Part shown: one piece after another, positions 2,044 through 60,685 of the stretch | Layout of the letters: every line of letters begins with the position of its first letter | Numbering within the stretch: position 1 is the stretch's first letter | Origin: Paracoccus sp. TOH | GTDB taxonomy: Bacteria > Pseudomonadota > Alphaproteobacteria > Rhodobacterales > Rhodobacteraceae | Assembly: GCF_030388245.1 (NCBI RefSeq) | Contig: NZ_CP098361.1 | Span: 1,177,001 to 1,241,000 of the forward strand | Reading direction: 5' to 3' | Length of the DNA: 64,000 bases | Notes under the pieces: generated by a model | The model's input: only the letters and a program-made list of their open reading frames with translations | What the model was told of the DNA's origin: nothing | Database searches by the model: none | Made by a program: the position numbers and the translations under genes

Positions 2044-4230
<2,187 letters not shown>

Positions 4231-4721: not shown

Positions 4722-4760
4722 TCCGGCCGCGCCGCGAAAGCGGGCATTCGAGGAACAGAG

Positions 4761-4785: not shown

Positions 4786-4826
4786 CTTCGTTGTCCAAAT
4801 ACCGCGAATCGCGGCGCCGCCGCCGC

Positions 4827-6158: not shown

Positions 6159-6161
6159 GGA

Positions 6162-7864: not shown

Positions 7865-7880
7865 CGTGCCGCCGGTTTGG

Positions 7881-7904
7881 CCGCCGCGGCACCGGCCGCG
7901 GCGG
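7881..7904 (-). promoter_or_regulatory. Intercistronic stem-loop between binding protein and permease
   Basis: CCGCCGCGG (7881-7889) pairs perfectly with CCGCGGCGG (7896-7904), loop of six bases. Such stems typically follow the binding-protein cistron, slow 3' decay and partly terminate, so that more binding protein than permease is made. That role is inferred from position. Confidence 0.5.
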
Positions 7905-7915
7905 TGTCAGTCAGA

Positions 7916-24163: not shown

Positions 24164-26016
24164 TCTCTTTCCTCCTGCCACCAGGTTTCTGGCATGAAGC
24201 CGGGCCAGTCACCGTAAAGCGGCGTGTTTTCAGGATAATCCAGGTCGGCGCGATGGGCCAAGCGGGAAATCCGTGAATAGCTGACCGGGATGACATAGCG
24301 TCCGGCGGTTAAGATCCGGTCAAGCGCCCTGACCGCGGCGACATAATCCTCATGCGTGCGGGCCCGGCCCATCTCGGCGATCATCGCCTCGGCGGCGGGG
24401 CTGTCCATGCCCATCCAGTTCTTGCTGCCCGGCTTGGCCACGCCCTCGCGGCCCCAATAGAGCCGCTGCTCGTTCCCGGGCGAGAGCGACAGGCCGCGCT
24501 CGTACCAGGTCATGTCGAACTGGTAGTTGTTGGTGCGTTCCACATATTGCGCCGCATCAAGCAGCGTCACCTTGGGGCGGATGCCCAGATTGCGCAGCGA
24601 TTGCACGAAGATATCGACGATCTGCCGGGTCTCGGCGCTGGTGCGCATGGCGCTGCCGGACTGATTCAGCAGGATCTCGAAGCTGAAGGGGCGGCCTTGG
24701 GTGTCGCGCAGTTCGCCCTTCTGCACGGTCCAGCCCGCCTGGCCGAGCAGGTCCAGCGCGGCGCGGATGCCCTTGCGGTCGATGGCCCGCTCGCCGCCCT
24801 CGGGCAGGGCATAACCTTCGATGGTGCCGGGCGGCAGCCGGTCCGCGAAGGGGGCAAGCAGTTCCGCCTCGCGCCCCGTGGCGGGGCCGGGCTGCATCGC
24901 CAGTTCGGAATTGGCGAAATAGCTGGTGATGCGCGGATCCTTGCCGCCGGTCAGCGTCATGTTGATGAAGCGCTGGTTGAAGGCTTCGATCATCGCCTGC
25001 CGCACCCGCCAGTCGGCGAAGCGCGGGTTGCGGGTGTTCATCACCAGCCCCATGATTCCCGAAGGACGGCCATGCGGGATCTCGGCCTTGACCACCTTGC
25101 CCTCGCGGATGGCGGGAAAGTCGAAGTTGCGCTCCCACCGTGCTGCGACCAGCTCGCGCCAGACGTCGATCTCGCCGGCCTTGAAGGCCTCGAACATGGC
25201 CGAGGCATCGCCGAAATAATCGTAGCGGATCACGTCGAAATTGTGCAGGCCTTGGCTGACCGCCAGGTCGCGGCCCCAATAGTCGGGATTGCGGCGGAAG
25301 GTGATGGCGCGGCCGGGATCGACCTTGTCGATGACATAGGGCCCCGAGCCGATCGGGGCCATCAGGCTGGACTGGCTGAAATCGCGCCCCTGCCATTGCG
25401 CCTTCTTCAGGATCGGCCGCATGCCCATCAGCATGGCCAGCTCGCGGTCCGGGGTGTTGAAGGTGAAGCGGACCGAGCGCGGGCCGGTCTGCTCCATCGT
25501 CTCGACCTTGGACCAGACGGCGGTGTAGCGCGGATGCCCCTTGGTCCCGAGCACCTCATAGGACCACATCACGTCCTCGATGGTTACCGGCGAGCCGTCC
25601 GAAAATCGGGCCTCGGGGCGCAGGGTGAACTCGACCCAGCCGCGCTCGGCATCGGTCTCGACGCTTTCGGCCAGCAGGCCGTAAAGCGTGAAGGGTTCGT
25701 CGATCGAGCGCATCATCAGCGACTCGGTCAGCAGACCCGGCTGGGTGAAGATCGGCCAGACCGGGTTGCCCATCAGGATCCAGGGGTTGAGCGAATCGAA
25801 GCTGCCGGTCTCGGCCAGCCGAATCGTGCCGCCCTTGGGGGCCTGGGGATTGGTATAGGGCAGATGGCTGAAGCCGGGCGGCAGCGCAGGTTCTCCATAC
25901 ATTGCAATGGCATGCATGGGTTCGGCAAGGCTTGCCAGCGGCATGGATGCAACACACGCGCACAGCGCGATTCGCCGCCAGATCGCGGATTCGTTAGCAA
26001 ATTTGAAGAATCGCAT
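24160..26016 (-). CDS. Oligopeptide-type ABC binding protein (SBP family 5, YejA-like)
   Basis: A 618-residue secreted binding protein. After a signal peptide ending near ASLAEP, the mature part has YTNPQAPKGGTIRLAETGSFDSLNPW and RFSDGSPVTIEDVMWSYE, typical of the YejA/microcin C branch of family 5. Length agrees. No permease or ATPase gene follows; instead it is translationally coupled to an entericidin-like lipoprotein and a CsbD-like gene, so it must work with transporter parts encoded elsewhere. The start at 26016 (MRFFKFANES) gives a proper signal peptide. Confidence 0.88.
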   Translation of the reverse strand: MRFFKFANESAIWRRIALCACVASMPLASLAEPMHAIAMYGEPALPPGFSHLPYTNPQAPKGGTIRLAETGSFDSLNPWILMGNPVWPIFTQPGLLTESLMMRSIDEPFTLYGLLAESVETDAERGWVEFTLRPEARFSDGSPVTIEDVMWSYEVLGTKGHPRYTAVWSKVETMEQTGPRSVRFTFNTPDRELAMLMGMRPILKKAQWQGRDFSQSSLMAPIGSGPYVIDKVDPGRAITFRRNPDYWGRDLAVSQGLHNFDVIRYDYFGDASAMFEAFKAGEIDVWRELVAARWERNFDFPAIREGKVVKAEIPHGRPSGIMGLVMNTRNPRFADWRVRQAMIEAFNQRFINMTLTGGKDPRITSYFANSELAMQPGPATGREAELLAPFADRLPPGTIEGYALPEGGERAIDRKGIRAALDLLGQAGWTVQKGELRDTQGRPFSFEILLNQSGSAMRTSAETRQIVDIFVQSLRNLGIRPKVTLLDAAQYVERTNNYQFDMTWYERGLSLSPGNEQRLYWGREGVAKPGSKNWMGMDSPAAEAMIAEMGRARTHEDYVAAVRALDRILTAGRYVIPVSYSRISRLAHRADLDYPENTPLYGDWPGFMPETWWQEERE

Positions 26017-26098
26017 GCTCGATTGCCCTGATTTCCGGGTCGTTGGTTCTGCCCGCGCCCAGATTAACCATCCGTTCACCGCGAGGCAAACTTACGCC

Positions 26099-26127
26099 TT
26101 GGACTCATGGGGGGAAAAGCGTATAGA
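26099..26127 (+). promoter_or_regulatory. Sigma-70-type promoter for the putative sRNA
   Basis: TTGGAC (26099-26104) and TATAGA (26122-26127) are separated by exactly 17 bases. The pair sits about 75 bases before a strong intrinsic terminator with no good gene between them. Confidence 0.6.
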
Positions 26128-26133
26128 TAAGGC

Positions 26134-26207
26134 ACTGCTCGATAGGTTTCTTGCCTGTATGAAACCTGCCTCATGACTTGCGCCCGCCTTGTGCGGGCGC
26201 TTTTTTC
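26134..26207 (+). ncRNA. Putative small RNA ending in an intrinsic terminator
   Basis: The predicted transcript starts about seven bases after the -10 box. It forms a 5' stem AGGTTTC (26144-26150) with GAAACCT (26161-26167) closing a ten-base loop. A short single-stranded linker leads into a terminator stem, GCGCCCGC (26180-26187) with GCGGGCGC (26193-26200), followed by six T's. A short reading frame crosses the area but has no ribosome site. No family was recognised. The rest of the 26017-26399 gap holds the divergent upstream regions of the binding protein and bdhA. Confidence 0.6.
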
Positions 26208-26399
26208 TTGGGGTTTTCCGCTTTCCGCCGGCTGCGGCGTCCTCGCGTCTGCCCCGGGAATCGATCACGCAAAAATGTGAACGGAACGTATCACTTCCGC
26301 CGATCCCGGCCACCTCGCGCGTCCCGGCGGCCGGCTTGTGCAGGCCCGGCTTTTTCCCCATGCTGCGACTGCAACAGCAACGCGGGCGTGGAGACGGCG

Positions 26400-27182
26400 A
26401 TGTTCGAGAAATTCCTCAGCGGCAAGACGGCGGTGGTGACCGGCTCCAATTCGGGGATCGGGCTTGGCATCGCCCATGAGCTGGCGCGGGCGGGCGCGGA
26501 TATCGTGCTGAACAGCTTCACCGATGCGGCCGAGGATCACGCGCTGGCCGACAGCCTGGCCGCCGCGCATGGCGTCGCCGTGCGCTATATCCAGGCCGAC
26601 ATGTCCAAGGGCGCCGATTGCCGCGCCCTGATCGAGAAGGCCGGCGTCTGCGACATCCTGGTGAACAATGCCGGTATCCAGCATGTCGCGCCGATCCCGG
26701 ATTTCCCGGCCGAGAAATGGGACGCGATCATCGCCATCAACCTGAGTTCGGCCTTTCACACCACGGCGGCGGCGCTGCCGATCATGCGCCAGGCCGGCTG
26801 GGGCAGGGTGATCAACATCGCCTCGGCGCATGGGCTGACGGCCAGCGAATACAAATCGGCCTATGTCGCGGCCAAGCACGGCATCGTCGGCCTGACCAAG
26901 GTGACGGCGCTGGAGACCGCGAAGGAGCCGATCACCTGCAACGCCATCTGCCCCGGTTACGTGCTGACCCCGATCGTGGAGAAGCAGATCCCCGACCAGA
27001 TGAAGACCCATAACATGAGCCGCGACGAGGTGATCGCCAAGGTCATGCTCCAGCGCCAGCCCTCCGGGCAGTTCGCCACGGTCGAGCAGATGGGCGGCAC
27101 GGCGGTCTTTCTGTGCTCGCCGGCGGCGGAGCAGATCACCGGGACGACCATCTCGGTGGATGGGGGCTGGACGGCGTTGTAA
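26400..27182 (+). CDS. bdhA: 3-hydroxybutyrate dehydrogenase
   Basis: A 260-residue SDR. The NAD-binding TGSNSGIGLG is followed by NNAGIQHVAPIPDFPAEKWDAI and the catalytic YVAAK, and the subfamily C-terminal region CNAICPGYVLTPIVEKQIPDQ is characteristic of D-beta-hydroxybutyrate dehydrogenases. It converts 3-hydroxybutyrate to acetoacetate in polyhydroxybutyrate turnover. The start at 26400 matches the family; the reading frame is open upstream without homology. It is the last clearly chromosomal gene before the accessory region. Confidence 0.93.
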   Translation: MFEKFLSGKTAVVTGSNSGIGLGIAHELARAGADIVLNSFTDAAEDHALADSLAAAHGVAVRYIQADMSKGADCRALIEKAGVCDILVNNAGIQHVAPIPDFPAEKWDAIIAINLSSAFHTTAAALPIMRQAGWGRVINIASAHGLTASEYKSAYVAAKHGIVGLTKVTALETAKEPITCNAICPGYVLTPIVEKQIPDQMKTHNMSRDEVIAKVMLQRQPSGQFATVEQMGGTAVFLCSPAAEQITGTTISVDGGWTAL

Positions 27183-27210
27183 GGGGCGCGCGGGATCTGC
27201 CGAGGCGCGA

Positions 27211-27232
27211 GGCTGGCGGATGTGCGCCAGCC
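27211..27232 (+). terminator. Hairpin downstream of bdhA
   Basis: GGCTGGCG (27211-27218) pairs with CGCCAGCC (27225-27232), loop six bases, 28 bases beyond the stop. No T-run. Confidence 0.4.
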
Positions 27233-27458
27233 AGCAGCGGATCTGGCTTGCAGGACTGCCCCGAGGACAAGGATCAAGCCGCATTTCCGTATACACGCCT
27301 GACCCATTCATCGCCATCTGGCTATGAGATGATCAATAACCAATGAGGCATGGGTTGAATTGCCAAGCCAGCAAGATGCGCTTTTGCGGCAGGACACTTT
27401 CCGCGCGGCTGTGCCGAGAGGGGGAGCGGATGGTGGGAGCCCTTAAGGCGGCGCTGGG

Positions 27459-27602
27459 GTGTCGCGACCTGTCGTCTCGAAGCAGCTGGGCGTGCTGAAG
27501 CAGGCCGGGTTGGTGCGGGACCGGCATGATGGCCGCGACACCCATTACAGCGCCGAGCAAAGGAAACGGGCGCTATTGGGAAAGCTGTTTCGACCATCTT
27601 GA
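27459..27602 (+). pseudogene. ArsR-family regulator remnant
   Basis: Forty-seven codons read as VSRPVVSKQLGVLKQAGLV followed by RDRHDGRDTHYS and a stop at 27600-27602. This is the recognition helix and wing of an ArsR winged-helix repressor. The N-terminal half cannot be found in any frame upstream and no start codon fits. It is followed by an SRPBCC remnant, the usual neighbour of such regulators, so a former arsR-AHSA1 pair has decayed here. Confidence 0.7.
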
Positions 27603-27609
27603 AGACCCA

Positions 27610-27892
27610 TTGAACAAGATGAATCAGTGAGTTGGAGCACGATCATTAGACTGGTTCAACGCTGGCTGACTCAGCCGCATCGCGTCACCCATGGCCCGCT
27701 AAGACAGATTTCTGCGCCGCAGCCGGATTTCGTTTCACTGTGCAGAGCAATCCGCAACCGGACCGAACTTTCATTTTGACTGCGAGGTCATCGCCGTCGA
27801 ACCGGGCAAGATGCTCGCATATGTCTGGAACGCAGATGACGATGAGTCGGGCAAAAGACCAAGGGGCACCGTGACCTGGCGGCTTGCCGCCT
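27610..27892 (+). pseudogene. SRPBCC/AHSA1-domain protein remnant
   Basis: In shifting frames the DNA encodes RFTVQSNPQPD and then, from 27769, FHFDCEVIAVEPGKMLAYVW followed by RGTVTWRLA, which is the central sheet of an AHSA1-like SRPBCC protein. At least one frameshift separates the two parts, and the C-terminus is replaced in frame by an ardA fragment beginning near 27886. Non-functional. Confidence 0.65.
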
Positions 27893-27995
27893 GCAACAAC
27901 GGCTATCTGCATGGGGCTTGGATCGACGCGGATCAGGACGCCTGACGAGATCAGGGACGAGATTGCGGCCAGCCATGATTTCGAGCCTGAGGGGC
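27886..27995 (+). pseudogene. ardA fragment (duplicate of 31405-31510)
   Basis: The DNA reads NNGYLHGAWIDADQDA, then after a one-base shift DEIRDEIAA, which is the N-terminal part of an ArdA antirestriction protein. Over about 48 bases it is nearly identical to the intact ardA at 31363 (two differences between 27894 and 27941). It is fused in frame to the SRPBCC remnant and ends in a stop. Confidence 0.7.
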
Positions 27996-28107
27996 AAATT
28001 TGCAGGTAAAGCCCTTTGCAGCCGCCTGCCGCCGTCAGCACATGACCCTTCCGGCCATCATGCTTCGCGCGTATCGCCGCCAGATCGTTCAGACCGTCCT
28101 TTGCCAT
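27975..28107 (-). pseudogene. Tyrosine integrase N-terminal remnant (DUF4102-like)
   Basis: On the minus strand, MAKDGLNDLAAIRAKHDGRK leads to GCKGLYLQICPSGSKSWL, the arm-binding domain pattern of P4-type integrases (GLYLxVxPSGSKxW). Translation then runs into antisense of the ardA fragment, and no catalytic domain follows. It is probably the stump of an older island integrated nearby. Confidence 0.6.
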
Positions 28108-28745
28108 GCCGAAATTCTCGGCCCACCACAAATTTAGCCATTGCCCGCCACGCATGACAACGGACGTTAACTGCGCATTCATTTAGTTGGTTAAATTATA
28201 TGATTAATTTTAACAGATCTTCGCGCAAGGCGCCGCTGTTCTGGCGGAAGCGGTGAGCGTTCATGCCCGCACCCCCACTGGCTCGCTGGTCCAGTCCACC
28301 GACCCGAGCCGCGCGGCGACGGCCGCAGCCGACTGGCCGGGATAGACCGCGCGGCCCCGGCCGGTGCGGTCGCAGATCACCACCGCGACGGGCAGTTCCC
28401 CGCGGCGGTTCGGGCGTTCTTGAAGCGGCTGGATTGGGTCACGTTTTGGGGCACAAAACGGGGCACCATCTTCCACTAAGTGGCTGTTTTTCCTGATATT
28501 ACTGGGCAAAGTGGCGGGCCGAAGCCGAAGAAACAGAGAACTACACCTACGCTATACCCCTCCCAAGTTGAGGAATGTGCTGCTGTCAAACCGAGTGGCA
28601 GCGGGTAGCCTGTGCGCACAAGACGCAAAAGCAGACGGCGGGCACCCCCATACAGGAGTGAGGGGGCATCCAGTGACGAGCGCGCGCCAATGAGGTCTTG
28701 ATCTGCTACAGTTTTTTGGAAATATGGTGCCAAGGGGAGCACCAA
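28108..28745. other. Non-coding left end of the element
   Basis: No convincing gene is seen. The stretch 28190-28220 is AT-rich. The att copy lies at 28242-28255. An 82-codon minus-strand frame (28261-28509) resembles no family I know and may be a remnant. A GC stem with CCCCC and GGGGG partners lies near 28643-28668, upstream of the TIR gene. Confidence 0.4.
28242..28255 (+). repeat. attL: copy of the tRNA-Ser 3' end
   Basis: TGGCGGAAGCGGTG is identical to 60596-60609, which encodes the CCA end and acceptor stem of tRNA-Ser on the opposite strand. It marks the left border of the element. See the attR entry for supporting logic from the integrase reading frame. Confidence 0.75.
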
Positions 28746-29909
28746 ATGCCAGCGTATGCATACCAAATAATAGTAATGGGCGGTAAAGACGATAGGCTGC
28801 TTATACTGAAAAAGTCACTAGAAGATCGTTCCAACGAACTTGGAATCGATCCCGAAAAGATTGTCTATCTGGATAGCGATGACGCCTACAATCGAAAGCT
28901 TCCCGCTCTTGGGATATATTTCGGCAACTCCCCGAGGGTTGTTCCTGCTGCAATTTCCCGTCTTATTCAAGATTCCATTGTTATAATTCCCGTAGTAAGC
29001 CATATAACTATGGTTTCTCAGGAAATACCGAACGAACTAAGTCACATAAATGCTATTCAATGCTCTCGTTCAGGCGACAATATTGCCCGGCTTACGTCGC
29101 TGGTTTTTGAGACATTCCGGCTACTGAGGAAGGAGCGAGGAATTTTCATAAGCTATCGTCGCAAGGGGTCACAGCCGCTTGCGAACAAGCTTTATGATGA
29201 GCTTGATAAACGTGGCTTCGACGTTTTCATAGATACACGCTCAGTTCCCCCCGCCGCTGACTTTCAAGCAGAGCTTTGGCACAGAATGTCAGATGTCGAT
29301 ACAATCGTTCTGATTGACACGCCGGGATTTAGGGAGGGGCGCTGGACGAAGGCGGAACTCGCGCAAGCTAACTTGCTAGGAATACAAACTCTGCATCTTC
29401 TATGGCCGGGTCAAAAGGAAGAGTCGAAGTATGCATTTAGCCACTTCGTAAAACTCCAACCATCAGATTTTAAAGGACCATCACCCGGACGAGGAGCAAC
29501 TATAACGCAGGAGGCGATAAATGCCATCTGCACAATGGCCGAGGAACTAAGGGCGCAGGCGATGGCTCTCCGGCACGCTCATTTAGTGGACAACTTCTGC
29601 GATGCCGCTCGGGATCTCGCATTCACCCCATCGGTTCAGCCTGAGCGTTGGATTTCCGTCGCACTTCCCAAGGGCAAATCTCTGGCTGTAGTTCCAGCAG
29701 TCGGGCGCCCTACTTCAGACCGAATAAACACAATCTTTGACTCAATCTCGGCACATAAAGCAACAGATGCTCCGATCTGGGCGATATATGATAGTCGCGG
29801 CCTGCATGAAAATTGGATCAGGCACCTGAATTGGCTAGATGGCCATCTACCAATTCGGACGCTTTCAGTTGCCCACGTCCCTGACGCGCTGAAGGAGTTC
29901 TCGAAATGA
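28746..29909 (+). CDS. TIR-domain protein, probable NADase of a Thoeris-like system
   Basis: A 387-residue protein in three parts. Residues 1-130 are an unrecognised alpha/beta region (VMGGKDDRLLILKKSLEDRS ... SIVIIPVVSHITM). Residues 131-225 form a TIR domain starting RGIFISYRRKGSQPLANKLY, with FDVFIDTRSVPP and the catalytic motif WTKAEL, where Glu204 takes the NADase glutamate position. Residues 255-387 are a second unrecognised region with IWAIYDSRGLHENWIRHLNW. The start at 28746 has AGGGGAG upstream. It is coupled (ATGA) to a SLOG gene and faces a DUF1863 TIR gene. Base composition is clearly less GC-rich than its surroundings, a sign of separate acquisition. Likely role: NAD+ depletion or signal production on phage infection. 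Confidence 0.8.
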   Translation: MPAYAYQIIVMGGKDDRLLILKKSLEDRSNELGIDPEKIVYLDSDDAYNRKLPALGIYFGNSPRVVPAAISRLIQDSIVIIPVVSHITMVSQEIPNELSHINAIQCSRSGDNIARLTSLVFETFRLLRKERGIFISYRRKGSQPLANKLYDELDKRGFDVFIDTRSVPPAADFQAELWHRMSDVDTIVLIDTPGFREGRWTKAELAQANLLGIQTLHLLWPGQKEESKYAFSHFVKLQPSDFKGPSPGRGATITQEAINAICTMAEELRAQAMALRHAHLVDNFCDAARDLAFTPSVQPERWISVALPKGKSLAVVPAVGRPTSDRINTIFDSISAHKATDAPIWAIYDSRGLHENWIRHLNWLDGHLPIRTLSVAHVPDALKEFSK

Positions 29910-30484
29910 TAGAAGTGTTCCTTTCGGCCAGCGTCCCCCTTCCCGAGCGAAATAGAATCTATTTTGAAACCGCAGACGTATTCCTGATACGCGAATCCAT
30001 ACGCGCCCTTGTCGAGGTCGTTCTACCGAAGGGACGTATTACATTCGGCGGCCATCCAGCCATTACACCACTTATGTCGCTCTATGCTCGAAATGCCAAA
30101 CTGGGCAATAAGCATATCACGATATACCAGAGCGATTTCTTTCGAGGAGAGATGCCTCGTGAGAATGATGATTTTGCTGACATTCGCTACACTGCGAAAG
30201 TAGCAGGCGGCGTTACCGAGAATTTGGCGCTGATGCGCTCAGAAATGCTGAAAAGTCGAAAGTTCGATGCAGCAGTTTTAATCGGTGGAATGGAAGGCAT
30301 CAGGGATGAAGCGTCCATGTTTAAGGAACTCCATCCCCAAGCCAAGGTCTTACCCTTACCTGCAACAGGTGCAGCGGCGCGCATCGAATTTCTTGAGGGT
30401 GACTATCCAAAATTTTTGGAGAACGAGATTTCTTTCGCCAGCCTCTTTCGGCGCACCTTGCTTCCTAACCCCTTAGCCGAATAG
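29906..30484 (+). CDS. SLOG-domain protein, probable nucleotide-signal sensor
   Basis: A 192-residue protein that looks like one Rossmannoid SLOG domain. The first strand is EVFLSASVP; the glycine-rich loop RITFGGHPAITPLM (GGHP at residues 48-51) and the second loop AAVLIGGMEGIRDEASMF (GGMEG at 127-131) resemble the LSDAT/SLOG group. In Thoeris ThsA a SLOG domain binds the cyclic ADP-ribose signal made by ThsB. Here it is a free protein translated with the TIR protein, so it may be the detached sensor. No transmembrane or effector part is present. The last 20 bases overlap the convergent ThsB-like gene. Confidence 0.72.
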   Translation: MIEVFLSASVPLPERNRIYFETADVFLIRESIRALVEVVLPKGRITFGGHPAITPLMSLYARNAKLGNKHITIYQSDFFRGEMPRENDDFADIRYTAKVAGGVTENLALMRSEMLKSRKFDAAVLIGGMEGIRDEASMFKELHPQAKVLPLPATGAAARIEFLEGDYPKFLENEISFASLFRRTLLPNPLAE

Positions 30485-30956
30485 CCTCTTCGATCCATCC
30501 TTCAATGTTGTTCGATATAGAGGCATAGACAGCCTTACTATCTGCTCCGGCAGGATCATAGACCTTAGCGTAATTTGACATAGGCGTTTTTTGGGTGCCG
30601 ACGGTCCAGTTGGCGAATGGGTTGGCTCCCTTGTTGGTTGAATTTCCATTTTTATCCAATAGCTTATGAATGTTGATCCCTAGAATCGCCTTCTTTTGAG
30701 ACCATGCGTATTCTATTTCGTAGTCAACCCACTTTCGGCCCGCTGTGTGTGCTCCAATCAGGACGACAAGGGTGCTTCTTCCTGCCATATTGCCGTTGAT
30801 CCATTTCTTTACGGCATCGTCGCCCTTGGCCTTTATCTGCTCGAACTCATTACCAGATACAATCGGCTGCCCCTCTACCGAGCCGATGTTTTTGACTGTA
30901 GCAACACGCCAATTGTCTTCTGCATAGTGAAAGCTATAGAAGCACTTCCTAGTCAT
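30465..30956 (-). CDS. ThsB-like TIR protein (DUF1863, MTH538-type)
   Basis: A 163-residue protein of the DUF1863 TIR-like family, the same family as ThsB of Thoeris anti-phage systems. It opens RKCFYSFHYAEDNWRVATVK, continues with VSGNEFEQIKAKGDDAVKKW, STLVVLIGAHTAGRKWVDYE (Glu80 in the catalytic position) and KKAILGINIHKLLDKNGN. ThsB enzymes sense infection and convert NAD+ to a cyclic ADP-ribose signal. The gene is convergent with the TIR-SLOG pair and overlaps the SLOG 3' end by 20 bases. It has its own promoter region in the 400-base gap to ardA. Confidence 0.85.
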   Translation of the reverse strand: MTRKCFYSFHYAEDNWRVATVKNIGSVEGQPIVSGNEFEQIKAKGDDAVKKWINGNMAGRSTLVVLIGAHTAGRKWVDYEIEYAWSQKKAILGINIHKLLDKNGNSTNKGANPFANWTVGTQKTPMSNYAKVYDPAGADSKAVYASISNNIEGWIEEAIRLRG

Positions 30957-31362: not shown

Positions 31363-31893
31363 ATGACCAGCGCAACCGACATCAATCCCCGCATCTATGT
31401 TGCCTGCCTTGCAGCCTATAACAACGGCTATCTGCATGGTGCCTGGATCGACGCGGATCAGGACGCCGACGACATCAGGAACAAGGTTTCCGCGATGCTT
31501 GCGCGCTCGCCGATCAAGGGCGCGGAGGAATACGCCATCCATGATTATGAGGGTTTCGAGGGCATCACCGTCCACGAGTATGCCGGCATCGACAAGGTTG
31601 CCCGCATGGCCGCGTTCATCGCGGAGCATGGCGCGCTAGGCGCTGGTCTGCTGGACCATTGCGACGATGACATGGATCAGGCCGAAGCCGCCTTGCAGGA
31701 TTGCTATCACGGCCAGTTCGCCAGCCTCGCCGACTTCATGGAGGAAGTGACCACCGAAAGCGGCGTCACCATCCCCGAGGCGCTGCGCTACTATATTGAT
31801 TGGGAAGCAATGGCCCGCGATGCTGAAATGGGCGGCGAGTTCTTCACGGTCGAAACCGCACATGACGAGGTGCATGTGTTTTCCAGCCGGTGA
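31363..31893 (+). CDS. ardA: Antirestriction protein ArdA
   Basis: A 176-residue, very acidic DNA-mimic protein that blocks type I restriction enzymes when the element enters a new host. It begins with the family signature PRIYVACLAAYNNGYLHGAW followed by IDADQD, and contains EEYAIHDYEGFEG and DCYHGQFASLADFMEEV. Length and acidity fit. A fragment of a second copy sits at 27886. It lies just inside the defence module, in the leading part of the element. Confidence 0.95.
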   Translation: MTSATDINPRIYVACLAAYNNGYLHGAWIDADQDADDIRNKVSAMLARSPIKGAEEYAIHDYEGFEGITVHEYAGIDKVARMAAFIAEHGALGAGLLDHCDDDMDQAEAALQDCYHGQFASLADFMEEVTTESGVTIPEALRYYIDWEAMARDAEMGGEFFTVETAHDEVHVFSSR

Positions 31894-39083: not shown

Positions 39084-41138
39084 TTGAGCGCCGACGACGA
39101 AAACCACTTCCGCCCGAAGCCCGGCCGCATCCGATCCGTCACGCCGAAGGCTGGCAAGACCAAGAGCTTTTTCACGCAGGTCAAGAAGATCACCCGGCAG
39201 CATCAGGCGGCAGCCGCCCGCGATCCTTCCATGCCGTCATCCGCCCGCCCGTCATCGCCGGGCCGTTCCCGTGCCGTGGTCGCCAGCGGCAAGGGCGTGA
39301 AGCGCGGCCGGGGCGCGAGCTTCGTGCGCGCCCGCAATATCTCCGGCCATTGGCATCATCGCCAGCCCGGCAGCCGCCGCGTCATCGTCAAGCAGCGCAG
39401 CGTGAGGGCCGCATGGAAGGGCGGCCGTGCCCGCGCACATCTGCGCTATGTCCAGCGTGACGGAACCTCGCGCGACGGCGAGCGCGGCCGGCTCTATTCG
39501 GCGACCGAGGATCGCGCCGATGGCGACGCCTTCCTTGATCGCGGCAAGGACGACCGCCACCAATTTCGCTTCATCGTCTCGCCCGAGGACAACGCGGAGC
39601 TGTCGGACCTGACCGCCTACACCCGCGATTTCATGAAACAGGTGGAAGCCGACCTCGGCACGAAACTCGATTGGGTCGCCGTCAACCACTACAACACCGG
39701 CCACCCGCATGTGCATATCATCGTCAACGGCCGCGACGATATGGGCGGGGATCTAGTCATCAACGGCGACTATCTTTCCGCTGGCCTGCGCGAGCGCGCC
39801 AGCGAGCTTGCCAGTCTGGAACTCGGCCCCGTGACCGAGATCGAGCAGGCCCGCAAACTATCGGCCGAAATCGACCGGGACCGTTTCACCCGGATCGACG
39901 AGGCGATGGCCGGGGAGGCCGATGATCGTTTCCTCGACCTGCGCCATGAGCCGGTCGCACCGCGTCGCCAGTTCGAGCGAACATTGCGCCTGCGTCGCTT
40001 GAGCAAGCTCGAAAAGATGGGGCTGGCGACCGAACACGCGCCCGGCGTTTGGGAGTTGAGCAAGGACATGGAACCGGCCCTGCGCGAGCTAGGCGAGCGT
40101 GGCGACATTATCCGCACCATGCAGAAGGCGCTCGGCCCGCAGGGCGGCGAGCGCGATCCCATGAGCTTCCAAATCCATGACGGTGCGCCCGAGACGCCTA
40201 TCGTCGGTCGCGTCGTGGACAAGCATCTGTCCGACGAGCTTGGGGAGAACCTGACCGTTGTGGTGGACGGGATCGACGGCCGCACCCATCACATCGCCGG
40301 CATCGCGCCCGAGCGGCTGGAGGATGCCCGCATCGGCAGCGTCGTCCAGATCGGCCCGGCCGAGGTGACGGCCCGACCATCCGACCGCAGTATTGTGGCC
40401 ATCGCCGAGAGCGGCATCTATCGTCCGAGCCGTCATCTGGAGCAGGCGAAGTTCGAGGGCCGCGTTCCGGGCGGCGATTATGAGGGCTATCTCGATGCCC
40501 ATGTCCGCCGGCTGGAGGCGTTGCGCCGCGCCGGCATCGTCGAGCGGATCGACGCCGATCAATGGCGCATTCCCGAAGATTGCGAGAGCCGCGCCGCCGC
40601 CTACGACGCTGGCCGCGACCGGCAGGCCAGCGTTCGCGTCCTGTCGCCCGTCAATCTGGACCGGCAGATAGGTTCGGACGGCGCAACCTGGCTGGACCGG
40701 CGATTGGTTCACGACGAGACGGCCGACCTTGCGCCAACCGGCTTTGGGCAACAGGTCCGCGAAGCCATGGACCAGCGCCGCGAACATCACATCGAGCAGG
40801 GCGACGCCACCCAAGCGCGCGACGGTCGCATCTTCTACCGCAGCAACCTTCTCGCCACGCTGCGCGAGCGGGAAGTTGCCGGCGCCGGCGCGGAGATGGC
40901 CGAGGGCAAGGCGCTATCGTTCCGCGCCGCCAAGGATGGCGAGAGCATCAGCGGCAAGTTCACCGGGACTGTCCAGCTAACGAGCGGCAAGTTCGCCATC
41001 GTGGAAAAGAGCCACGAGTTCACCCTTGTCCCGTGGCGGCCAGTCATCGACCGTCAGCTCGGCCGCGAAGTTATGGGCGTCGTGCAGGGCGGTTCGGTAT
41101 CGTGGCAACTCGGGCGATCACGCGGTTTGTCGATCTGA
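39084..41138 (+). CDS. Relaxase (VirD2-like, DUF3363 family)
   Basis: A 684-residue nickase that cuts oriT and pilots the strand through the channel. The HUH metal-binding motif reads NHYNTGHPHVHIIVNG (His207, 209, 211); the N-terminus has RHQFRFIVSPEDNAEL before it. The C-terminal two-thirds is the DUF3363 part, ending in SHEFTLVPWRPVIDRQLGRE. The TTG at 39084 is chosen because the family starts close to this point (MSADDENHFRPKPGRIR). The gene is complete and not coupled to its neighbours. Confidence 0.9.
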   Translation: MSADDENHFRPKPGRIRSVTPKAGKTKSFFTQVKKITRQHQAAAARDPSMPSSARPSSPGRSRAVVASGKGVKRGRGASFVRARNISGHWHHRQPGSRRVIVKQRSVRAAWKGGRARAHLRYVQRDGTSRDGERGRLYSATEDRADGDAFLDRGKDDRHQFRFIVSPEDNAELSDLTAYTRDFMKQVEADLGTKLDWVAVNHYNTGHPHVHIIVNGRDDMGGDLVINGDYLSAGLRERASELASLELGPVTEIEQARKLSAEIDRDRFTRIDEAMAGEADDRFLDLRHEPVAPRRQFERTLRLRRLSKLEKMGLATEHAPGVWELSKDMEPALRELGERGDIIRTMQKALGPQGGERDPMSFQIHDGAPETPIVGRVVDKHLSDELGENLTVVVDGIDGRTHHIAGIAPERLEDARIGSVVQIGPAEVTARPSDRSIVAIAESGIYRPSRHLEQAKFEGRVPGGDYEGYLDAHVRRLEALRRAGIVERIDADQWRIPEDCESRAAAYDAGRDRQASVRVLSPVNLDRQIGSDGATWLDRRLVHDETADLAPTGFGQQVREAMDQRREHHIEQGDATQARDGRIFYRSNLLATLREREVAGAGAEMAEGKALSFRAAKDGESISGKFTGTVQLTSGKFAIVEKSHEFTLVPWRPVIDRQLGREVMGVVQGGSVSWQLGRSRGLSI

Positions 41139-41163: not shown

Positions 41164-42042
41164 CTACACGGAGACGAGGCTGATTTGCTTGTTGCTGTTC
41201 CTGCGATGCTCACTGAACGCGGCCGTGATCGCGCGCAATGTTTCGCGCGTCTTGGGGTCGGTCAGAGATGAGTGCAGAACGATGGACAGTGACGGAATTG
41301 GCGGCAGGTCGAGCATCTGACTGACCTCGATCATGTCGGGAGTCGCCAACCGACAGGGGAACGCAGCGACCGCAAGACCGGCGGACAATGCCGCAGTCAC
41401 CGCCGAGGTGCCGCCAACGAATACTTCGTTCCACTGGATTGCAGCCGCATCCAGCAAGCGCGTCGCCACTTCCCGAACCGTGCAGCACGAAGGATGACTT
41501 GCGATCCGCAATGGCTCGCCGGCGTGATGCTCGAAATCCGATGACGCAAACCAGCCGAAATGCTCGGGGCCAAGCACTTCCCCGTCCCGCCGGTCGTCGT
41601 CGCTTCGCACGATCACAGCATCCAGCGTTCCGTCCTCATAGGCATCCAGAAGGGCGCGCGAATTATCAACCAGGACCTCGACCGTCAGGCAGGGATCGAG
41701 CGATTTGAGCTTTGCAAGCAAGGTCGGAACTTCCGGCCCCATGATGTGCGCGGCGATCCCCAGCCGGAAGCGGCGCCTTTCCCCCGCGAGCGCCGCAAGC
41801 GCACGTTCATGGGCTGCAAGGAACTCCCGTGCGGGCGGCAGGAAGGTTTCGCCCTGCGCAGATAGACGCACCTGCCTTGGAGTGCGTTCGATCAGCTTTT
41901 TGCCGAGGCGATCTTCGAGCCGCTTCAACTTCACGCTGACCGCACCCTGCGTCGAGCCAATGGCCTCGGCGGCGCGGGTGAAGCTCTGAAGGTCGGCGAT
42001 CATCACGAAGGCCCGGACGGCATCAACCTCAAGCACACTCAT
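41164..42042 (-). CDS. LysR-family regulator (cargo)
   Basis: A 292-residue LTTR. The winged HTH occupies residues 1-65 (AFVMIADLQSFTRAAEAIGS, TQGAVSVKLKRLEDRLGKKL). A co-inducer domain follows with LGIAAHIMGPEVPTLLAKLK. It is divergent from the MFS gene; the 173-base gap holds the control region, so it probably regulates that exporter. It marks the start of the cargo block inserted between relaxase and traG. Confidence 0.9.
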   Translation of the reverse strand: MSVLEVDAVRAFVMIADLQSFTRAAEAIGSTQGAVSVKLKRLEDRLGKKLIERTPRQVRLSAQGETFLPPAREFLAAHERALAALAGERRRFRLGIAAHIMGPEVPTLLAKLKSLDPCLTVEVLVDNSRALLDAYEDGTLDAVIVRSDDDRRDGEVLGPEHFGWFASSDFEHHAGEPLRIASHPSCCTVREVATRLLDAAAIQWNEVFVGGTSAVTAALSAGLAVAAFPCRLATPDMIEVSQMLDLPPIPSLSIVLHSSLTDPKTRETLRAITAAFSEHRRNSNKQISLVSV

Positions 42043-42215
42043 CTATCTATCCATTTTTGTTGTCACTGAAATGGCCTGTCATACGATTGTCAAATGAGCA
42101 TATTGGCGGCATTTCTGCAAGCCAACCGTATCGTCGCGCGCAGGGTGAGCCGAGTAACGCATATCGCCGTAGGTGATGAGCCGCCTTGTGCTGCGAGCAA
42201 CAGCAAGGCCAAGAT

Positions 42216-43739
42216 ATGAATCCTGCACCATCATCCAAGAACAGCTTTGCGCTTGTCGCCGTATGTCTTTCGGCGCTCATGCTCGGGCTGGAAATAACCA
42301 GTATCCCGTCGATCCTGCCGGCGCTGGAAAGCGTCCTCCCGGCCGATTTCCGGCAACTGCAATGGATCATGAACGCCTACACCATCGCCATGTGCGCGGT
42401 GTTGATGGCAATGGGCGCCTTGGGGGATCGGTTCGGCCGCAAGCGCATCTTCATGTCGGGCGTCGTGGTCTTCGGGATCGCGTCCCTTATCTGCGGGCTG
42501 GCGACCAGCGCGCCGCTTCTGATCGCGGCGCGCTTTCTACAGGGACTCAGCGCCGCCGCCATGCTCGCCTGTCAGGTCGCGGTCCTGTCGCACCAGTTCA
42601 GGGATGGCGCGGAGCGCGGCAAGGCGTTCGGCTGGTGGGGCATCATCTTCGGGATCGGCCTTGGCTTCGGCCCGATAGTTGGTGGCGGGATTATCACGCT
42701 GGCAAGCTGGGAATGGGTGTTCCTGATCCACGTCGCAATCGCGGCAGCCACGGTGCTGTTTGCTCAAAAGGGCGTCGAGGAATCTTCCGATCCCCAAGCC
42801 ACCCGGATCGACCTCGCCGGCATGGTCACGCTGTCGATTGCGGTGTTCGGAATCGTTTATCTGATTACGCAGGGACAGGAATTGGGACTGGCGAGTCCGG
42901 CGGCGCTGGCGATCCTCGCAGTCAGCATCGCCAGTTTCGTGCTGTTCGTCGTCGTCGAGAATCGCACTGCACGACCGATGTTCGACTTCACCGCCTTCCG
43001 CATTCGCAGGTTTTCGGGCGCGTTGCTCGGCTCCAGCGGCATGAATTTCAGCTTTTGGCCCTTCGTGATCTATCTGCCGATCTATCTGCAAGCAGTGCTG
43101 GGCTATGACGCCATCGCGGCGGGCCTGACCGTGCTCGCCTATACCGTGCCGACGATCCTGGTCCCGCCGCTTGCGGAACGGTTGCTTCTGAGCCGTGGTC
43201 CTGGCTTGGTCATTCCCCTTGGCCTCTTCACCATCGGCGCGGGCTTCGGCCTTCTCCATATCGTCGCGTCAAGCGAACATGCGAACTGGATGACGCTGCT
43301 CCCCGGCTGCATCCTCGCGGGGATCGGCCTCGGCCTCACAAACACGCCCGTCACCAACACGGCGACCGCCGCCGTGCCGCCCGAACGGGCCGGCATGGCG
43401 TCCGGCATGGATATGAGCGCGCGGTTCATTTCGCTGGCGGTCAATATCGCGATCATGGGCCTTATCCTCTTGAGCGGCGTCTATGCCTATCTCGCTCAAG
43501 GCCTCCCGCAACCCCCGGCCGAAGCCACGCTCCGGGCGCTGGCAGATGCCGTGTCAGCGGGCAATCTCGCTGCCGCCGAAAGCCACGGGTTCCCCATCAC
43601 CGCCGCGCGCGCTGCGCTGGCGCAGGGCATCGGCTGGGTCACGCTCTACGGCGCAGTCTCGGCATGGACCCTCGCGCTGATGAGCTTCCTTGTCTTCGGA
43701 GGGAAGAAGTCGATGCGGGCGGAAGCCTTACCGCGCTGA
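42216..43739 (+). CDS. MFS drug-type exporter (DHA2, 14 TM)
   Basis: A 507-residue inner-membrane proton antiporter of the EmrB/QacA branch. About 14 hydrophobic segments; motif A reads GALGDRFGRKRIFM and motif B region LIAARFLQGLSAAAMLA, and the antiporter motif C is in GIGLGFGPIVGGGI. The substrate is unknown, probably a hydrophobic toxic compound or the product of the adjacent reductase. The start at 42216 lacks a strong ribosome site but fits the family; the frame runs a few codons upstream. It is divergent from the LysR gene at 41164. Confidence 0.9.
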   Translation: MNPAPSSKNSFALVAVCLSALMLGLEITSIPSILPALESVLPADFRQLQWIMNAYTIAMCAVLMAMGALGDRFGRKRIFMSGVVVFGIASLICGLATSAPLLIAARFLQGLSAAAMLACQVAVLSHQFRDGAERGKAFGWWGIIFGIGLGFGPIVGGGIITLASWEWVFLIHVAIAAATVLFAQKGVEESSDPQATRIDLAGMVTLSIAVFGIVYLITQGQELGLASPAALAILAVSIASFVLFVVVENRTARPMFDFTAFRIRRFSGALLGSSGMNFSFWPFVIYLPIYLQAVLGYDAIAAGLTVLAYTVPTILVPPLAERLLLSRGPGLVIPLGLFTIGAGFGLLHIVASSEHANWMTLLPGCILAGIGLGLTNTPVTNTATAAVPPERAGMASGMDMSARFISLAVNIAIMGLILLSGVYAYLAQGLPQPPAEATLRALADAVSAGNLAAAESHGFPITAARAALAQGIGWVTLYGAVSAWTLALMSFLVFGGKKSMRAEALPR

Positions 43740-43775
43740 ACTCATATAAACGCCAGAAGCGCGGAAGGAACACAG

Positions 43776-44450
43776 ATGAAAATCGGGATTATTGGCGCGG
43801 GGCGAATGGCGCAGGCAGTTGGATTGCTGGCAACGAGGGCCGGTCATCAGATCATGTTGAGCAATTCCAGAGGACCGGAAACGATCCGGCACATCGGCCA
43901 GCAGATCGGTTGTGAGGTCGGGACCGTGGATGACGTTGCCGCGTTCGGTGAAATGATCGTCGCGGCCATCCATCTGCAAATGTCGCCGGCCATTCCGGCG
44001 ACGCCACTGGCAGGAAAGATAGTGCTGAACCCGCAGAACTACTTTCCACATTTCGGGCCGGTGCCGGAGCTGGACAGCGGCGAGCTTACGACCGCCGAGG
44101 TACTGGCAAGGCTCCTTCCGGGTTCCAAGGTGGTGAAAGCCCTCAACTCCATTCTGGTGGAGGACGTAGTTCCTGATGCTCGCCCGACCGGCGCGAAGGA
44201 TCGGCGCGCGCTTCCTATGGCCGGAGACGATGCCGACGCAAAAGCGGCCGTCGCCACATTCCTCGATCAGATCGGCTACGATTCAGTCGATGCGGGAGGC
44301 TTGGCCGATGGATGGCGCTTCGAGCGCCGCAGAGCGGTCTATTGTATTCCGCTGGACAGGATCATGCTTGAGGAACGGTTGGCGGCAACCACCCGCGACA
44401 GCTTCGTGCCAGATGGCAACTGGCGATTCGATCACGGCATCCGCGCCTAG
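43776..44450 (+). CDS. NADPH-dependent F420 reductase-like oxidoreductase
   Basis: A 224-residue Rossmann protein with MKIGIIGAGRMAQAVGLLAT (GxGxxA NADP loop) and ILSNSRGPETI-type specificity region, similar to the FNO/NADP oxidoreductase domain. F420 itself is absent from most Proteobacteria, so the real partner is probably another hydride acceptor. AAGGAACACAG lies before the ATG. It is downstream of the MFS gene (36 bases) and may modify a compound that the exporter removes. Confidence 0.8.
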   Translation: MKIGIIGAGRMAQAVGLLATRAGHQIMLSNSRGPETIRHIGQQIGCEVGTVDDVAAFGEMIVAAIHLQMSPAIPATPLAGKIVLNPQNYFPHFGPVPELDSGELTTAEVLARLLPGSKVVKALNSILVEDVVPDARPTGAKDRRALPMAGDDADAKAAVATFLDQIGYDSVDAGGLADGWRFERRRAVYCIPLDRIMLEERLAATTRDSFVPDGNWRFDHGIRA

Positions 44451-44468
44451 TGGAGCGGAGGGTGAGCG

Positions 44469-45470
44469 ATGCGGCGGCGGCAACCAGTATCCATGATTGA
44501 TCGTCAATCTGGTATGCTGACCTCTCTAGGGTCGCGCATCCCTATGACATCGCTGATCCAGACGCTTGCCGTCGCCGAATATCTGAACTTCCGCCACGCC
44601 GCTAATGCGCTCGGCGTGGCGCAATCCAGCGTCAGCGCCCGCGTGAAGACGCTGGAAGAAGACCTCGGCATCCTCCTGTTCGAGCGCCATGCGCGCGGCG
44701 TCCGGTTGACCGAAGCCGGACGCCAATTCATCGAGCGGATAGCGGCAGGCATCGACCAACTCGACCATGCGGTGAAGACCGCAGGCATGGCCGCATCAGG
44801 GGAATGTGGTCGCCTGCGCATCGGCGTCCATGCCCTGATCCCGTGCAGCTTCCTTGCAGACCTGCTTGCCGGATACCGGGAAGACCATCCCGGCATCGAC
44901 ATCGAGATTACCGAAGGCACGGCCCGCGATACCGTCACACAGCTTCGCGCCGACCGTTTGGACGTGGTGTTCGTAGCAGGAAGCCCCGAACTGCCCGACT
45001 GCCATTCCCGGCGTATATGGGCCGAACCACTGGTCGCGGCGCTACCGGATCGGCACCGGCTGGCCGACCAGCTTGCCGTCACCTGGGCCGACCTCGCAGG
45101 GGAGACGTTCCTTGTCCGATCCGGCGGCACCGGCCCGCAGGCTTACGACCATATCGTTCTGCGCCTTGCCGGACGCTGGCCCACATCCTCGATACAACGC
45201 TTCGATGTTGAGCGCAGCACCTTGCTATCCATGGTCGGACAGGGGTTCGGCATCACCATCGCCGGGGCGGCCACGACGCTGCTTCCAACGTCCGGTGTGG
45301 TCTTCCTGCCATTCGCCGACGAGCCGGAGCCGGTTCCGTTCTCGGCCGTCTGGTCGCCCTACAATCGCAGCGCCGCGCTTCATAACTTGCTCACGCTTGC
45401 AAGCGACATGGGGCGGCCGGGTTCGGGCGGACTGATTTCCCCAGCGATTCGCCCCGGCCACTCCGCATAG
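44469..45470 (+). CDS. LysR-family regulator (second, cargo)
   Basis: A 333-residue LTTR. The HTH core is TLAVAEYLNFRHAANALGVA and SSVSARVKTLEEDLGILLFE. A PBP2-type ligand domain follows (GRLRIGVHALIPCSFLADLL). The start at 44469 has GGAGGGTGAGCG in front; it adds 25 residues before the HTH, and an ATG at 44544 would give a standard length of 308. It is the last gene of the cargo block. It is only distantly like the LTTR at 41164, so the two are not a simple duplication. Confidence 0.88.
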   Translation: MRRRQPVSMIDRQSGMLTSLGSRIPMTSLIQTLAVAEYLNFRHAANALGVAQSSVSARVKTLEEDLGILLFERHARGVRLTEAGRQFIERIAAGIDQLDHAVKTAGMAASGECGRLRIGVHALIPCSFLADLLAGYREDHPGIDIEITEGTARDTVTQLRADRLDVVFVAGSPELPDCHSRRIWAEPLVAALPDRHRLADQLAVTWADLAGETFLVRSGGTGPQAYDHIVLRLAGRWPTSSIQRFDVERSTLLSMVGQGFGITIAGAATTLLPTSGVVFLPFADEPEPVPFSAVWSPYNRSAALHNLLTLASDMGRPGSGGLISPAIRPGHSA

Positions 45471-45617
45471 ACGCCAGCGCAGGCGGCCGCGCTGCCACGA
45501 CCGTCCTATTTACCGCCGCCCGTATCCGGCAGCCCTCCCGCATCCTCGCTCCTATTGCCTGCCCGGTTTTTGCTTACTCTCTGATCGGCTCCGTCCCTTT
45601 TGCAGACTGGAGCCTGG

Positions 45618-49813: not shown

Positions 49814-49823
49814 GGGCGCGGCC

Positions 49824-58596: not shown

Positions 58597-58982
58597 CCAC
58601 ATTGAAAGTCGGGATTGCCGACTACGACGAAATGAAGGCCCGCACGATGCGGGTTGCCAGGGGCGAGGAAAAGCCCGCACCCGACGATCCGAAGGTGTGG
58701 TTCACGTCCACGGAATCCTTCGCGCAAATCCTCTCCAGCGGGAACCGCGAGCTGCTGCGTGTCATCCATGAGCAGTCGCCCGGCTCGCTGGAGGAACTAT
58801 CGCGGATCACGGGCCGGACCAAGCCGAGCCTGTCCCGGACCCTCAAGACGATGGCGGGTTACGGCCTTGTCCGCATGGAACCCGGCGAGGGCCGGAAGCT
58901 CATGCCGAAGGTCTTGCACGACCGCGTGGCGCTGGAGCTGCCGCTGATCGAGCGTCAGGCCGCGAAGGGAGGTGCGCTATGA
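58593..58982 (+). CDS. TumA-like antitoxin with HTH
   Basis: A 129-residue protein with a MarR-like winged helix. The region KVWFTSTESFAQILSSGNRE followed by LLRVI is the TumA/HTH-associated lead, and LEELSRITGRTKPSLSRTLK with GLVRMEPGEGRKLMPK is the winged helix. It should neutralise the TumE-like toxin and repress the operon. It overlaps tumE upstream and the recombinase downstream (ATGA at both). Confidence 0.78.
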   Translation: MTTLKVGIADYDEMKARTMRVARGEEKPAPDDPKVWFTSTESFAQILSSGNRELLRVIHEQSPGSLEELSRITGRTKPSLSRTLKTMAGYGLVRMEPGEGRKLMPKVLHDRVALELPLIERQAAKGGAL

Positions 58983-60658
58983 ATATGCAAAGTCCTCATG
59001 TCGCGCTGCGCGCCGCGCTCTATCTGCGCGTCTCGACGGCCCGGCAGGCCGAGCATGACGTGTCGATCCCCGACCAGAAGCGCCAGGGCGAAGCCTATTG
59101 CGAGACGCGCGGCTACCAGCTTGTCGAAACCTTCGTGGAGCCGGGCAACAGCGCCACGAACGACCGCCGCCCCGAGTTCCAGCGGATGATAGAGGCTGCG
59201 ACCGCCAAGCCGGCATCGTTCGATGTCGTCGTGGTTCACAGCTTTTCGCGCTTCTTCCGCGACGAATTTGAAATGGAGTTCTATTACCGCAAGCTGGCGA
59301 AGAACGGCGTGAAGCTGGTTTCGATCACGCAGGAGCTTGGCGACGATCCGATCCACGACATGATGAGGCGGATCATGTCGCTGTTCGACGAATACCAGTC
59401 GAAGGAGAACGCCAAGCACGTCCTGCGCGCCTTGAAGGAAAACGCCCGGCAAGGCTTCTGGAACGGCTCGCTGCCGCCCATCGGCTACCGCGTCGTCGAT
59501 GCCGAGCAGCGCGGCGCGAAGATGAAGAAGAAGCTGGAGATTGACCCGCTCCATGCCGACACCGTGCGGCTGATCTTCCGCCTCGCATCGGAAGGCGATG
59601 GCACGTCCGGCCCCATGGGCGTCAAGAACATCGTCAACCACCTGAACAAGCACCGCATGTTCACACGCAACGGCGGGCGTTGGGGCATCGGCCAGCTTCA
59701 CTGTGTCCTGACCCGGCGCACCTATATCGGTGAGCATCGCTTCAATCGCCGTTCCAAGAAGGGCGAGGTGAAGCCCGAGGAAGAAGTCGTCACCGTCGCG
59801 GTGCCGCCGCTGATCGACCTTGAGATATTCGAGGCCGTTCAGCACCGCTTGCAGGTCAACAATCCCAAGGTGACGCCGCCCCGCGTCGTCAGCGGCCCGA
59901 ACCTGCTGACCGGCATTTGCCATTGCGGCAATTGCGGCGGGGCCATGACGCTGCGCACCGGCAAGAACGGCCGCTATCGCTATTATGCCTGCTCGATCCG
60001 GGCGCGGCAGGGCGAAACCGGCTGCAAGGGCCGGGCGATCCCCATGGACAAGCTCGACCGCATCGTGGTCAGCCATATCGAGGAAAGGCTACTCGACCCC
60101 GAGCGGATCGAAGACATTCTCGCCTCGCTTCTGGATCGCCGTCAGGAGGGCGTCGAGCGGCGCAGCCAGCACATCGCCGAGTTGAACCAGCGCGCGGCCG
60201 AAGCCGACAACCGCCTCAAGCGCCTCTACGACGCCATAGAAGCCGGTTCACTCGACCCGGCCGAGTCCTCGCTTGGCGAGCGCATCGCGGGCCTCACGGC
60301 GCTTCGGGATCAGGCACGGGCCGACGCCGCGCGGATCGAAGCCATGCTCGCCAGCTCCACCCACCAGCGCCTCACAGGGGCAGCCGTGCGGGAACTGGCG
60401 AGCGAAGCGCGCACCCGGCTCCGGCTCGATAAGGGCGGCTATCGGCGGGATCACGTCCGGGCCTTCGCCCAGCGTGTCGAGGTCGCGGACGATGCGATCT
60501 ATCTCAAAGGGAACAAAAACGTCCTGTTGCGGACGCTGGTAGCCACCAAGGGAGGGAAAACGGCGGGAATCGGCGTTCCCGGTTTTATACCGAAGTGGCG
60601 GAAGCGGTGGGATTCGAACCCACGGTGCGGTTCCCCGCACGCTAGTTTTCAAGACTAG
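58979..60658 (+). CDS. Large serine recombinase (integrase of the element)
   Basis: A 559-residue recombinase. The catalytic domain has ALYLRVSTARQAEHDVSIPD with nucleophile Ser19, and VVVHSFSRFFRDEFEMEFYY. A recombinase domain and zinc ribbon follow (CHCGNCGGAM, later YYACSIRARQGETGCKG), then a coiled coil (RRSQHIAELNQRAAEADNRL). The last residues (WDSNPRCGSPHASFQD) are encoded by the tRNA-Ser gene read backwards. In the excised circle the frame would read TGA just after WRKR, so this tail exists only in the integrated form. It is coupled to tumA. Confidence 0.92.
   Translation: MNMQSPHVALRAALYLRVSTARQAEHDVSIPDQKRQGEAYCETRGYQLVETFVEPGNSATNDRRPEFQRMIEAATAKPASFDVVVVHSFSRFFRDEFEMEFYYRKLAKNGVKLVSITQELGDDPIHDMMRRIMSLFDEYQSKENAKHVLRALKENARQGFWNGSLPPIGYRVVDAEQRGAKMKKKLEIDPLHADTVRLIFRLASEGDGTSGPMGVKNIVNHLNKHRMFTRNGGRWGIGQLHCVLTRRTYIGEHRFNRRSKKGEVKPEEEVVTVAVPPLIDLEIFEAVQHRLQVNNPKVTPPRVVSGPNLLTGICHCGNCGGAMTLRTGKNGRYRYYACSIRARQGETGCKGRAIPMDKLDRIVVSHIEERLLDPERIEDILASLLDRRQEGVERRSQHIAELNQRAAEADNRLKRLYDAIEAGSLDPAESSLGERIAGLTALRDQARADAARIEAMLASSTHQRLTGAAVRELASEARTRLRLDKGGYRRDHVRAFAQRVEVADDAIYLKGNKNVLLRTLVATKGGKTAGIGVPGFIPKWRKRWDSNPRCGSPHASFQD
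60596..60609 (+). repeat. attR: 3' end of tRNA-Ser
   Basis: TGGCGGAAGCGGTG, identical to 28242-28255. It lies within the tRNA-Ser gene (opposite strand) and within the recombinase frame. Joining this core to 28256 gives tgg-cgg-aag-cgg-tga, a stop codon for the recombinase; joining 28241 to the core restores the chromosome with an intact tRNA. Confidence 0.78.
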
Positions 60659-60685
60659 AGCCTTAAACCACTCGGCCACGCTTCC
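60596..60685 (-). tRNA. tRNA-Ser (anticodon UGA)
   Basis: A 90-base tRNA on the minus strand. Acceptor GGAAGCG pairs with CGCTTCC, followed by G and an encoded CCA. The anticodon stem CTAGT/ACTAG holds the loop CTTGAAA with anticodon UGA. A long variable arm (CGTGCGGGGAACCGCACC) identifies a serine tRNA, and GGTTCGAATCC is the T arm. It is intact despite serving as the element's integration site. Confidence 0.97.

Follow-up and report, generated by a model that had tools for sequence, protein, structure and literature searches.

In type I and type II Thoeris anti-phage systems, as presented in the sections consulted of two studies (PMC11204291, PMC12578639), ThsB proteins sense infection and make a signal, and ThsA, which carries a nucleotide receptor, executes the response. 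A Thoeris type III, together with a phage gene directed against it, TadIII, was mentioned in 2025 (PMC12390725, in the portion available), and may differ from the type III of NCBI. Among the papers listed by the searches, this was the only one found to name the type, and no primary description of it was among them; no description of its mechanism was found in the literature searched. The word Thoeris is absent from PMC10889362, and in the part of PMC13232231 that was accessible "type III" and "type II" occur in the reference list only. Here we describe a three-gene locus in Paracoccus sp. TOH (contig NZ_CP098361.1, positions 1,177,001 to 1,241,000; this stretch of 64,000 nucleotides is hereafter the window), which is almost certainly a type III Thoeris system. 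It comprises the following genes:

28746..29909, + strand: gene 1, thcB4, encoding a 387-amino-acid TIR protein
29906..30484, + strand: gene 2, thcA, encoding a 192-amino-acid free SLOG protein, with an ATGA overlap with thcB4
30465..30956, - strand: gene 3, encoding a ThsB-family TIR protein of 163 amino acids with Glu80, convergent with thcA

All three open reading frames of an initial annotation of this DNA were found at the same coordinates, and the arrangement that it described holds: the start codon of gene 2 and the stop codon of gene 1 overlap as ATGA (29906-29909), and gene 3 faces the other two, being convergent with gene 2 and overlapping its 3' end by 20 bp (30465-30484). The locus is also less GC-rich than its surroundings, as had been noted (48.8% in 28746-30956 versus 65.5% in 31300-58900 and 66.7% in 1-27000). 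The longest reading frame of gene 1 begins at a TTG at 28698; judged from the sequence, the ATG at 28746, directly after AAGGGGAG, looks like the better start. A promoter and terminator scan of the locus gave no more than expected by chance.

Both core proteins score far above the curated cut-offs of NCBIfam models (release 20.0) for Thoeris type III: gene 1 is ThcB4 (NF058526; 398.2 bits against a cut-off of 220) and gene 2 is ThcA (NF058525; 210.3 bits against 110). They lie side by side in the same order as in related loci, with an extra TIR gene next to them. The locus differs from other members in having a single extra TIR gene, convergently oriented, while other loci have up to five (L091; numbers prefixed with L designate related loci), often codirectional. 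It is a real find, and one that adds a member to a system already named. The initial annotation had proposed a Thoeris-like module in a layout perhaps undescribed; the kinship, the free SLOG protein and the lack of a ThsA-type SLOG stand, and the undescribed layout is ruled out by the existence of NCBIfam models of both core proteins as Thoeris type III. We take an extra ThcB-type TIR to be characteristic of type III, a reading drawn from the "4" in ThcB4 and from related loci, there being no stated definition; in the window, gene 3 is that TIR. In L027, on an Enterobacter cloacae plasmid, four TIR genes and a 78-amino-acid fragment precede ThcA: the second TIR, which is the gene 3 relative, is separated from the third by a patatin gene, and the fourth is ThcB4. 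The "4" may, at a guess, derive from this fourth position in L027-like loci.

ThcA consists of one domain over its whole length, a SLOG cluster3 domain (Pfam LD_cluster3, E 6.5e-60), so that the annotation of a free SLOG protein is borne out; absence of a SLOG fold was checked for and did not occur. ThcB4 has three parts, an alpha/beta region (residues 1-125), a TIR domain from about residue 130, and a C-terminal alpha/beta region (294-386), with a long helix (255-290) between the last two. Its Pfam match is to TIR_2 (E 9.4e-12, residues 133-209), the sole such match in the Paracoccus genome, and PADLOC names it ThsB. Glu204, annotated as catalytic, aligns with a Glu of the SARM1 TIR domain and is shared by all of the 73 ThcB4 proteins aligned. 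Profile comparison of slices of ThcB4 was uninformative, even for its TIR part against gene 3.

The gene 3 product matches ThsB_TIR in Pfam (E 8.4e-27), ThsB in PADLOC (PDLC00433, 3.6e-66), and the PADLOC candidate family PDC-M50B (1e-58); no NCBIfam model matched it at E up to 1. Matches in the PDB include 8wcf (1.2e-35) and ThsB1 (9b7d, 6.9e-16). Glu80, singled out in the initial annotation, is kept in all 49 gene-3-type proteins compared, that of the window included, and gene 3 itself is the sole match to its family in the Paracoccus genome (E up to 1e-10).

Type I Thoeris resembles this locus in that gene 3 is a ThsB-family TIR and ThcA shares the fold of the ThsA SLOG domain, but no SIR2-SLOG protein was found here; the SLOG forms a chain of its own, and the position of SIR2 is taken by a TIR. 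The absence of a SIR2 effector had been noted, and the Paracoccus genome (assembly 98.86% complete) contains no ThsA-type (STALD) SLOG by a search that was positive in 4 of 10 genomes. Type II systems, composed of a transmembrane-macro ThsA and ThsB, likewise have TIR enzymes that feed a separate nucleotide receptor, but this receptor is a macro domain and not a SLOG. The type II macro-domain ThsA (PF20016) had no match in the Paracoccus genome, nor in the control genomes.

The closest relative, on plasmid pSMR3-1 of Roseovarius mucosus, has the same three-gene layout, with identities of 76, 73, and 69%. To survey more distant loci we scanned genome contigs with a ThcA alignment and kept the best 80 of 298 relatives, a set that leans to the kind found in the window. 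By script count, 78 of these 80 loci have ThcB4 directly upstream of ThcA; in L102 the contig starts inside ThcB4, and the pair, missed by the script, is present on reading, while in L071 ThcA is shortened and ThcB4 was not found. Among plasmids, searches P0001 and P0002 returned the same 29 of 72,556 records, with adjacent coordinates in 29 of 29. Viral contigs yielded no relatives with the window protein alone as query and four with the alignment. A further TIR was found near 68 of the 80 genome pairs by our own profiles, and 9 of the 12 misses carry a ThsB-type TIR from a family whose members have 219-252 amino acids. Each of the three members checked is assigned to ThsB by PADLOC or Pfam; one falls just short of the Pfam cut-off but far exceeds that of PADLOC. 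An extra TIR is thus present near 77 of the 80 closest pairs (the exceptions being L051, L071, and L102). A member of the gene 3 family (at least 150 bits) no more than 5 kb away accompanies the pair in 36 of 80 genome loci, 10 of 18 plasmid loci, and 2 of 4 viral loci. In 4 of 80 genome and 3 of 18 plasmid loci, a gene-3-type TIR in convergent orientation starts no more than 2.5 kb downstream; a fifth, in L037, lies farther off.

In an evenly spread sample of 397 genomes of the phylum, ThcA matched in eight genomes, seven of them over the family cut-off. The gene 3 family (E up to 1e-10) occurs in 10 genomes; the two families co-occur in three, each time at one locus, versus 0.18 expected (2 versus 0.14 without the genome of the window). 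STALD is absent from all three, the Paracoccus genome among them, and in four of the seven other gene 3 genomes a SIR2-STALD ThsA lies immediately beside the gene 3 match, which is weak in G366 (66 bits). A lack of co-conservation, which the initial annotation had named as evidence against the module, did not occur; the association is, however, unequal. Pairwise distances, compared over 49 loci that contain all three proteins (the window included), correlate at 0.908 for ThcA and ThcB4, at 0.436 for ThcA and gene 3, and at 0.44 for ThcB4 and gene 3, figures that still include the effect of common ancestry among the loci; in 2000 permutations no value as high as any of the three arose. When only pairs of loci with a ThcB4 distance above 0.65 are considered, ThcB4 and gene 3 correlate at -0.06, and ThcA and ThcB4 at 0.27. 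What counts as evidence is how the pair differs from gene 3, not how large the correlations are in absolute terms. ThcB4 and ThcA form a nearly fixed pair; gene 3 belongs to a group of several TIRs that can replace one another.

In this system the gene 3 TIR is exchangeable and ThcA-ThcB4 fixed. Read most simply, ThcA-ThcB4 would be the equivalent of a ThsA divided between two chains. A component of the phage would activate gene 3, a ThsB-type TIR enzyme, which would then make a small signal molecule from NAD+, probably an isomer of cyclic ADP-ribose. The signal would be bound in the SLOG pocket of ThcA, and ThcA would presumably bind its partner ThcB4 and switch it on; the TIR domain of ThcB4 may then destroy NAD+, stopping the infected cell. 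ThcA and ThcB4 could in this way do the job of the one-chain SIR2-SLOG effector of type I, a TIR replacing SIR2. The order of a ThsB-like signaller, a SLOG receiver and a TIR executor had already been suggested in the initial annotation; it fits the data and is the one that we prefer, but the naming of ThcB4 points otherwise. Underpinning it are the protein families, the predicted folds, the nearly fixed pair, the conserved catalytic Glu, and the presence of the gene 3 family beside ThsA elsewhere. We put the probability of the mechanism as a whole at roughly 0.48.

Several observations weigh against it. With longer stretches fetched around the eight ThcA loci of the phylum sample, an extra TIR is present in only three of them (the window, L141, and L142). 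In the divergent loci L136-L140 our own profiles, which could miss distant TIRs, gave at most a 15-bit match over 75 amino acids, L137 being a 6-kb contig and the ThcA of L140 lying below the family cut-off (38 bits). An extra TIR is therefore a feature of closer kin and not of every ThcA-ThcB4 pair, which may work without an input TIR; we lowered our confidence on this account. The gene 3 family adjoins only 36 of the 80 pairs. In a profile comparison ThcA aligns weakly with a ThsA (E 0.082), and a counterpart of Lys388 was not established; nor were folds assigned to the N- and C-terminal parts of ThcB4, since matches to the TIR part took up the results of the fold search. Finally, to judge from the name ThcB4, those who coined it place gene 1 with the ThsB-like TIRs, and ThcA could itself be the effector.

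This last alternative survives best, and we consider it possible, if rather unlikely. Both TIRs would make signals, and ThcA, once bound to a signal, would attack a nucleotide or oligomerize to harm the cell. Such a role is implied by the names ThcA and ThcB4 and would suit the divergent pairs that have no extra TIR, but ThcA is a bare SLOG domain with no second domain. The LOG motif is GGxGTxxE, and the GG..G...E spacing of ThcA is one residue longer. Moreover, a tie to one particular neighboring TIR in nearly all loci is less expected of an effector than the sharing of many TIRs. It is improbable that ThcA is instead a brake on ThcB4, released when gene 3 or the phage shifts a nucleotide level: the two genes form a nearly fixed, ATGA-overlapping pair that evolves together, and according to PMC10022894 ThsA was a more active NADase in plant cells, without a signal, when its SLOG pocket was mutated, but the SLOG domains of ThsA are described chiefly as signal-dependent activators in the sections consulted of PMC10022894 and PMC12578639. 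Least probable of all is that the ThcA-ThcB4 pair works by itself and has gene 3 as a chance neighbor, be it unrelated cargo or a ThsB left stranded, since the presence of gene 3 near fewer than half of the pairs, its loose tracking of their history, its adjacency to ThsA elsewhere, and the five divergent pairs without a clear extra TIR are set against some extra TIR near nearly all of the closest pairs, the excess of co-occurrence, the convergent gene-3-type TIRs that abut ThcA in L003, L029, L035, L054, and L057 too, and the absence of a ThsA-type SLOG from the genome.

Related type III loci contain further genes. L020 includes a patatin phospholipase with an N-terminal SLOG domain (LD_cluster2; 3436-5052); its homolog in L027 is named CBASS lipase by NCBIfam, and the cluster occurs in six loci. 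It may be a further TIR-fed effector. A cluster of SIR2-type genes is likewise present in six ThcA-ThcB4 loci, including L056 (4048-5487), L015 (10918-12366), L037 (11108-12562), and L068 (3508-4947). The one member checked, in L056, is a SIR2-STALD ThsA, so effectors of types I and III can occur together at one locus. Both proteins resemble ThcA in being SLOG domains of multi-TIR loci, but theirs are fused to a phospholipase (L020) or SIR2 (L056), while the SLOG of ThcA is free. A recurring set of a ThsB-type TIR, an Nmad2-type protein, a MazG_C pyrophosphohydrolase-like protein and a uracil-DNA glycosylase (by annotation and clusters, with single members checked) is found in L108 (8827-11719) and also in L105, L022, L015, L014, and L005, and is possibly a separate defense cassette. 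HET-type proteins adjoin the pair in four loci, L028 (5211-6743), L016 (4352-5755), L030 (5212-6678), and L089 (136-903); the Pfam HET domain was checked for L028 only, and L016 is so annotated. In L140, which has no clear extra TIR, a 1082-amino-acid protein with ParA-like, NACHT, and FGE-sulfatase domains (4747-7995) starts inside the end of the divergent thcA, and is perhaps another trigger.

The window locus lies at the left end of a probable integrative conjugative element of about 32 kb in tRNA-Ser(tga) (28242-60609), of which it would be cargo:

28242..28255, + strand: probable left attachment repeat, 14 bp, a copy of the tRNA-Ser end and an exact direct repeat of 60596-60609
31363-31893: ArdA
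39084-41138: relaxase
45600-47603: coupling protein (VirD4-type)
49656-52316: VirB4-like protein
56429-57565: TrbI
58979..60658, + strand: large serine recombinase at the right end, next to the tRNA (Pfam Resolvase, Recombinase, Zn_ribbon_recom)
60596..60685, - strand: tRNA-Ser(tga) (ARAGORN), whose end, 60596-60609, is the probable right attachment repeat

The repeat comparison covered 26001-29000 versus 60201-60900. An empty attachment site was not found: the left flank had one short match in 1 of 40 other genomes of the genus, and the long matches to the right flank start beyond the tRNA. An imperfect repeat of about 82 bp (88%) links 27883-27964 with 31408-31488; the second copy is inside ardA, and the left flank may therefore preserve part of a related element. 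Between the relaxase and coupling protein genes, 41164-45470 encodes a LysR regulator, a major facilitator superfamily transporter, an F420-type NADP oxidoreductase, and a second LysR-like protein (assigned by eye), probably a second cargo.

More speculatively, and in our view against the odds, ThcA-ThcB4 could be a portable receiver-executor pair in a TIR-to-SLOG-to-TIR relay with a replaceable trigger, of ThsB type in most close relatives and perhaps NACHT in L140. If this is true, an upstream TIR would write an NAD-derived message, a free SLOG subunit would read it, and a second TIR would destroy NAD+. The occurrence of one ThsB family beside two receivers, the SIR2-SLOG ThsA and ThcA-ThcB4, hints at a shared signal. 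As a compact, three-gene type III system, the Paracoccus locus is convenient for telling a signaling TIR from a killing TIR.
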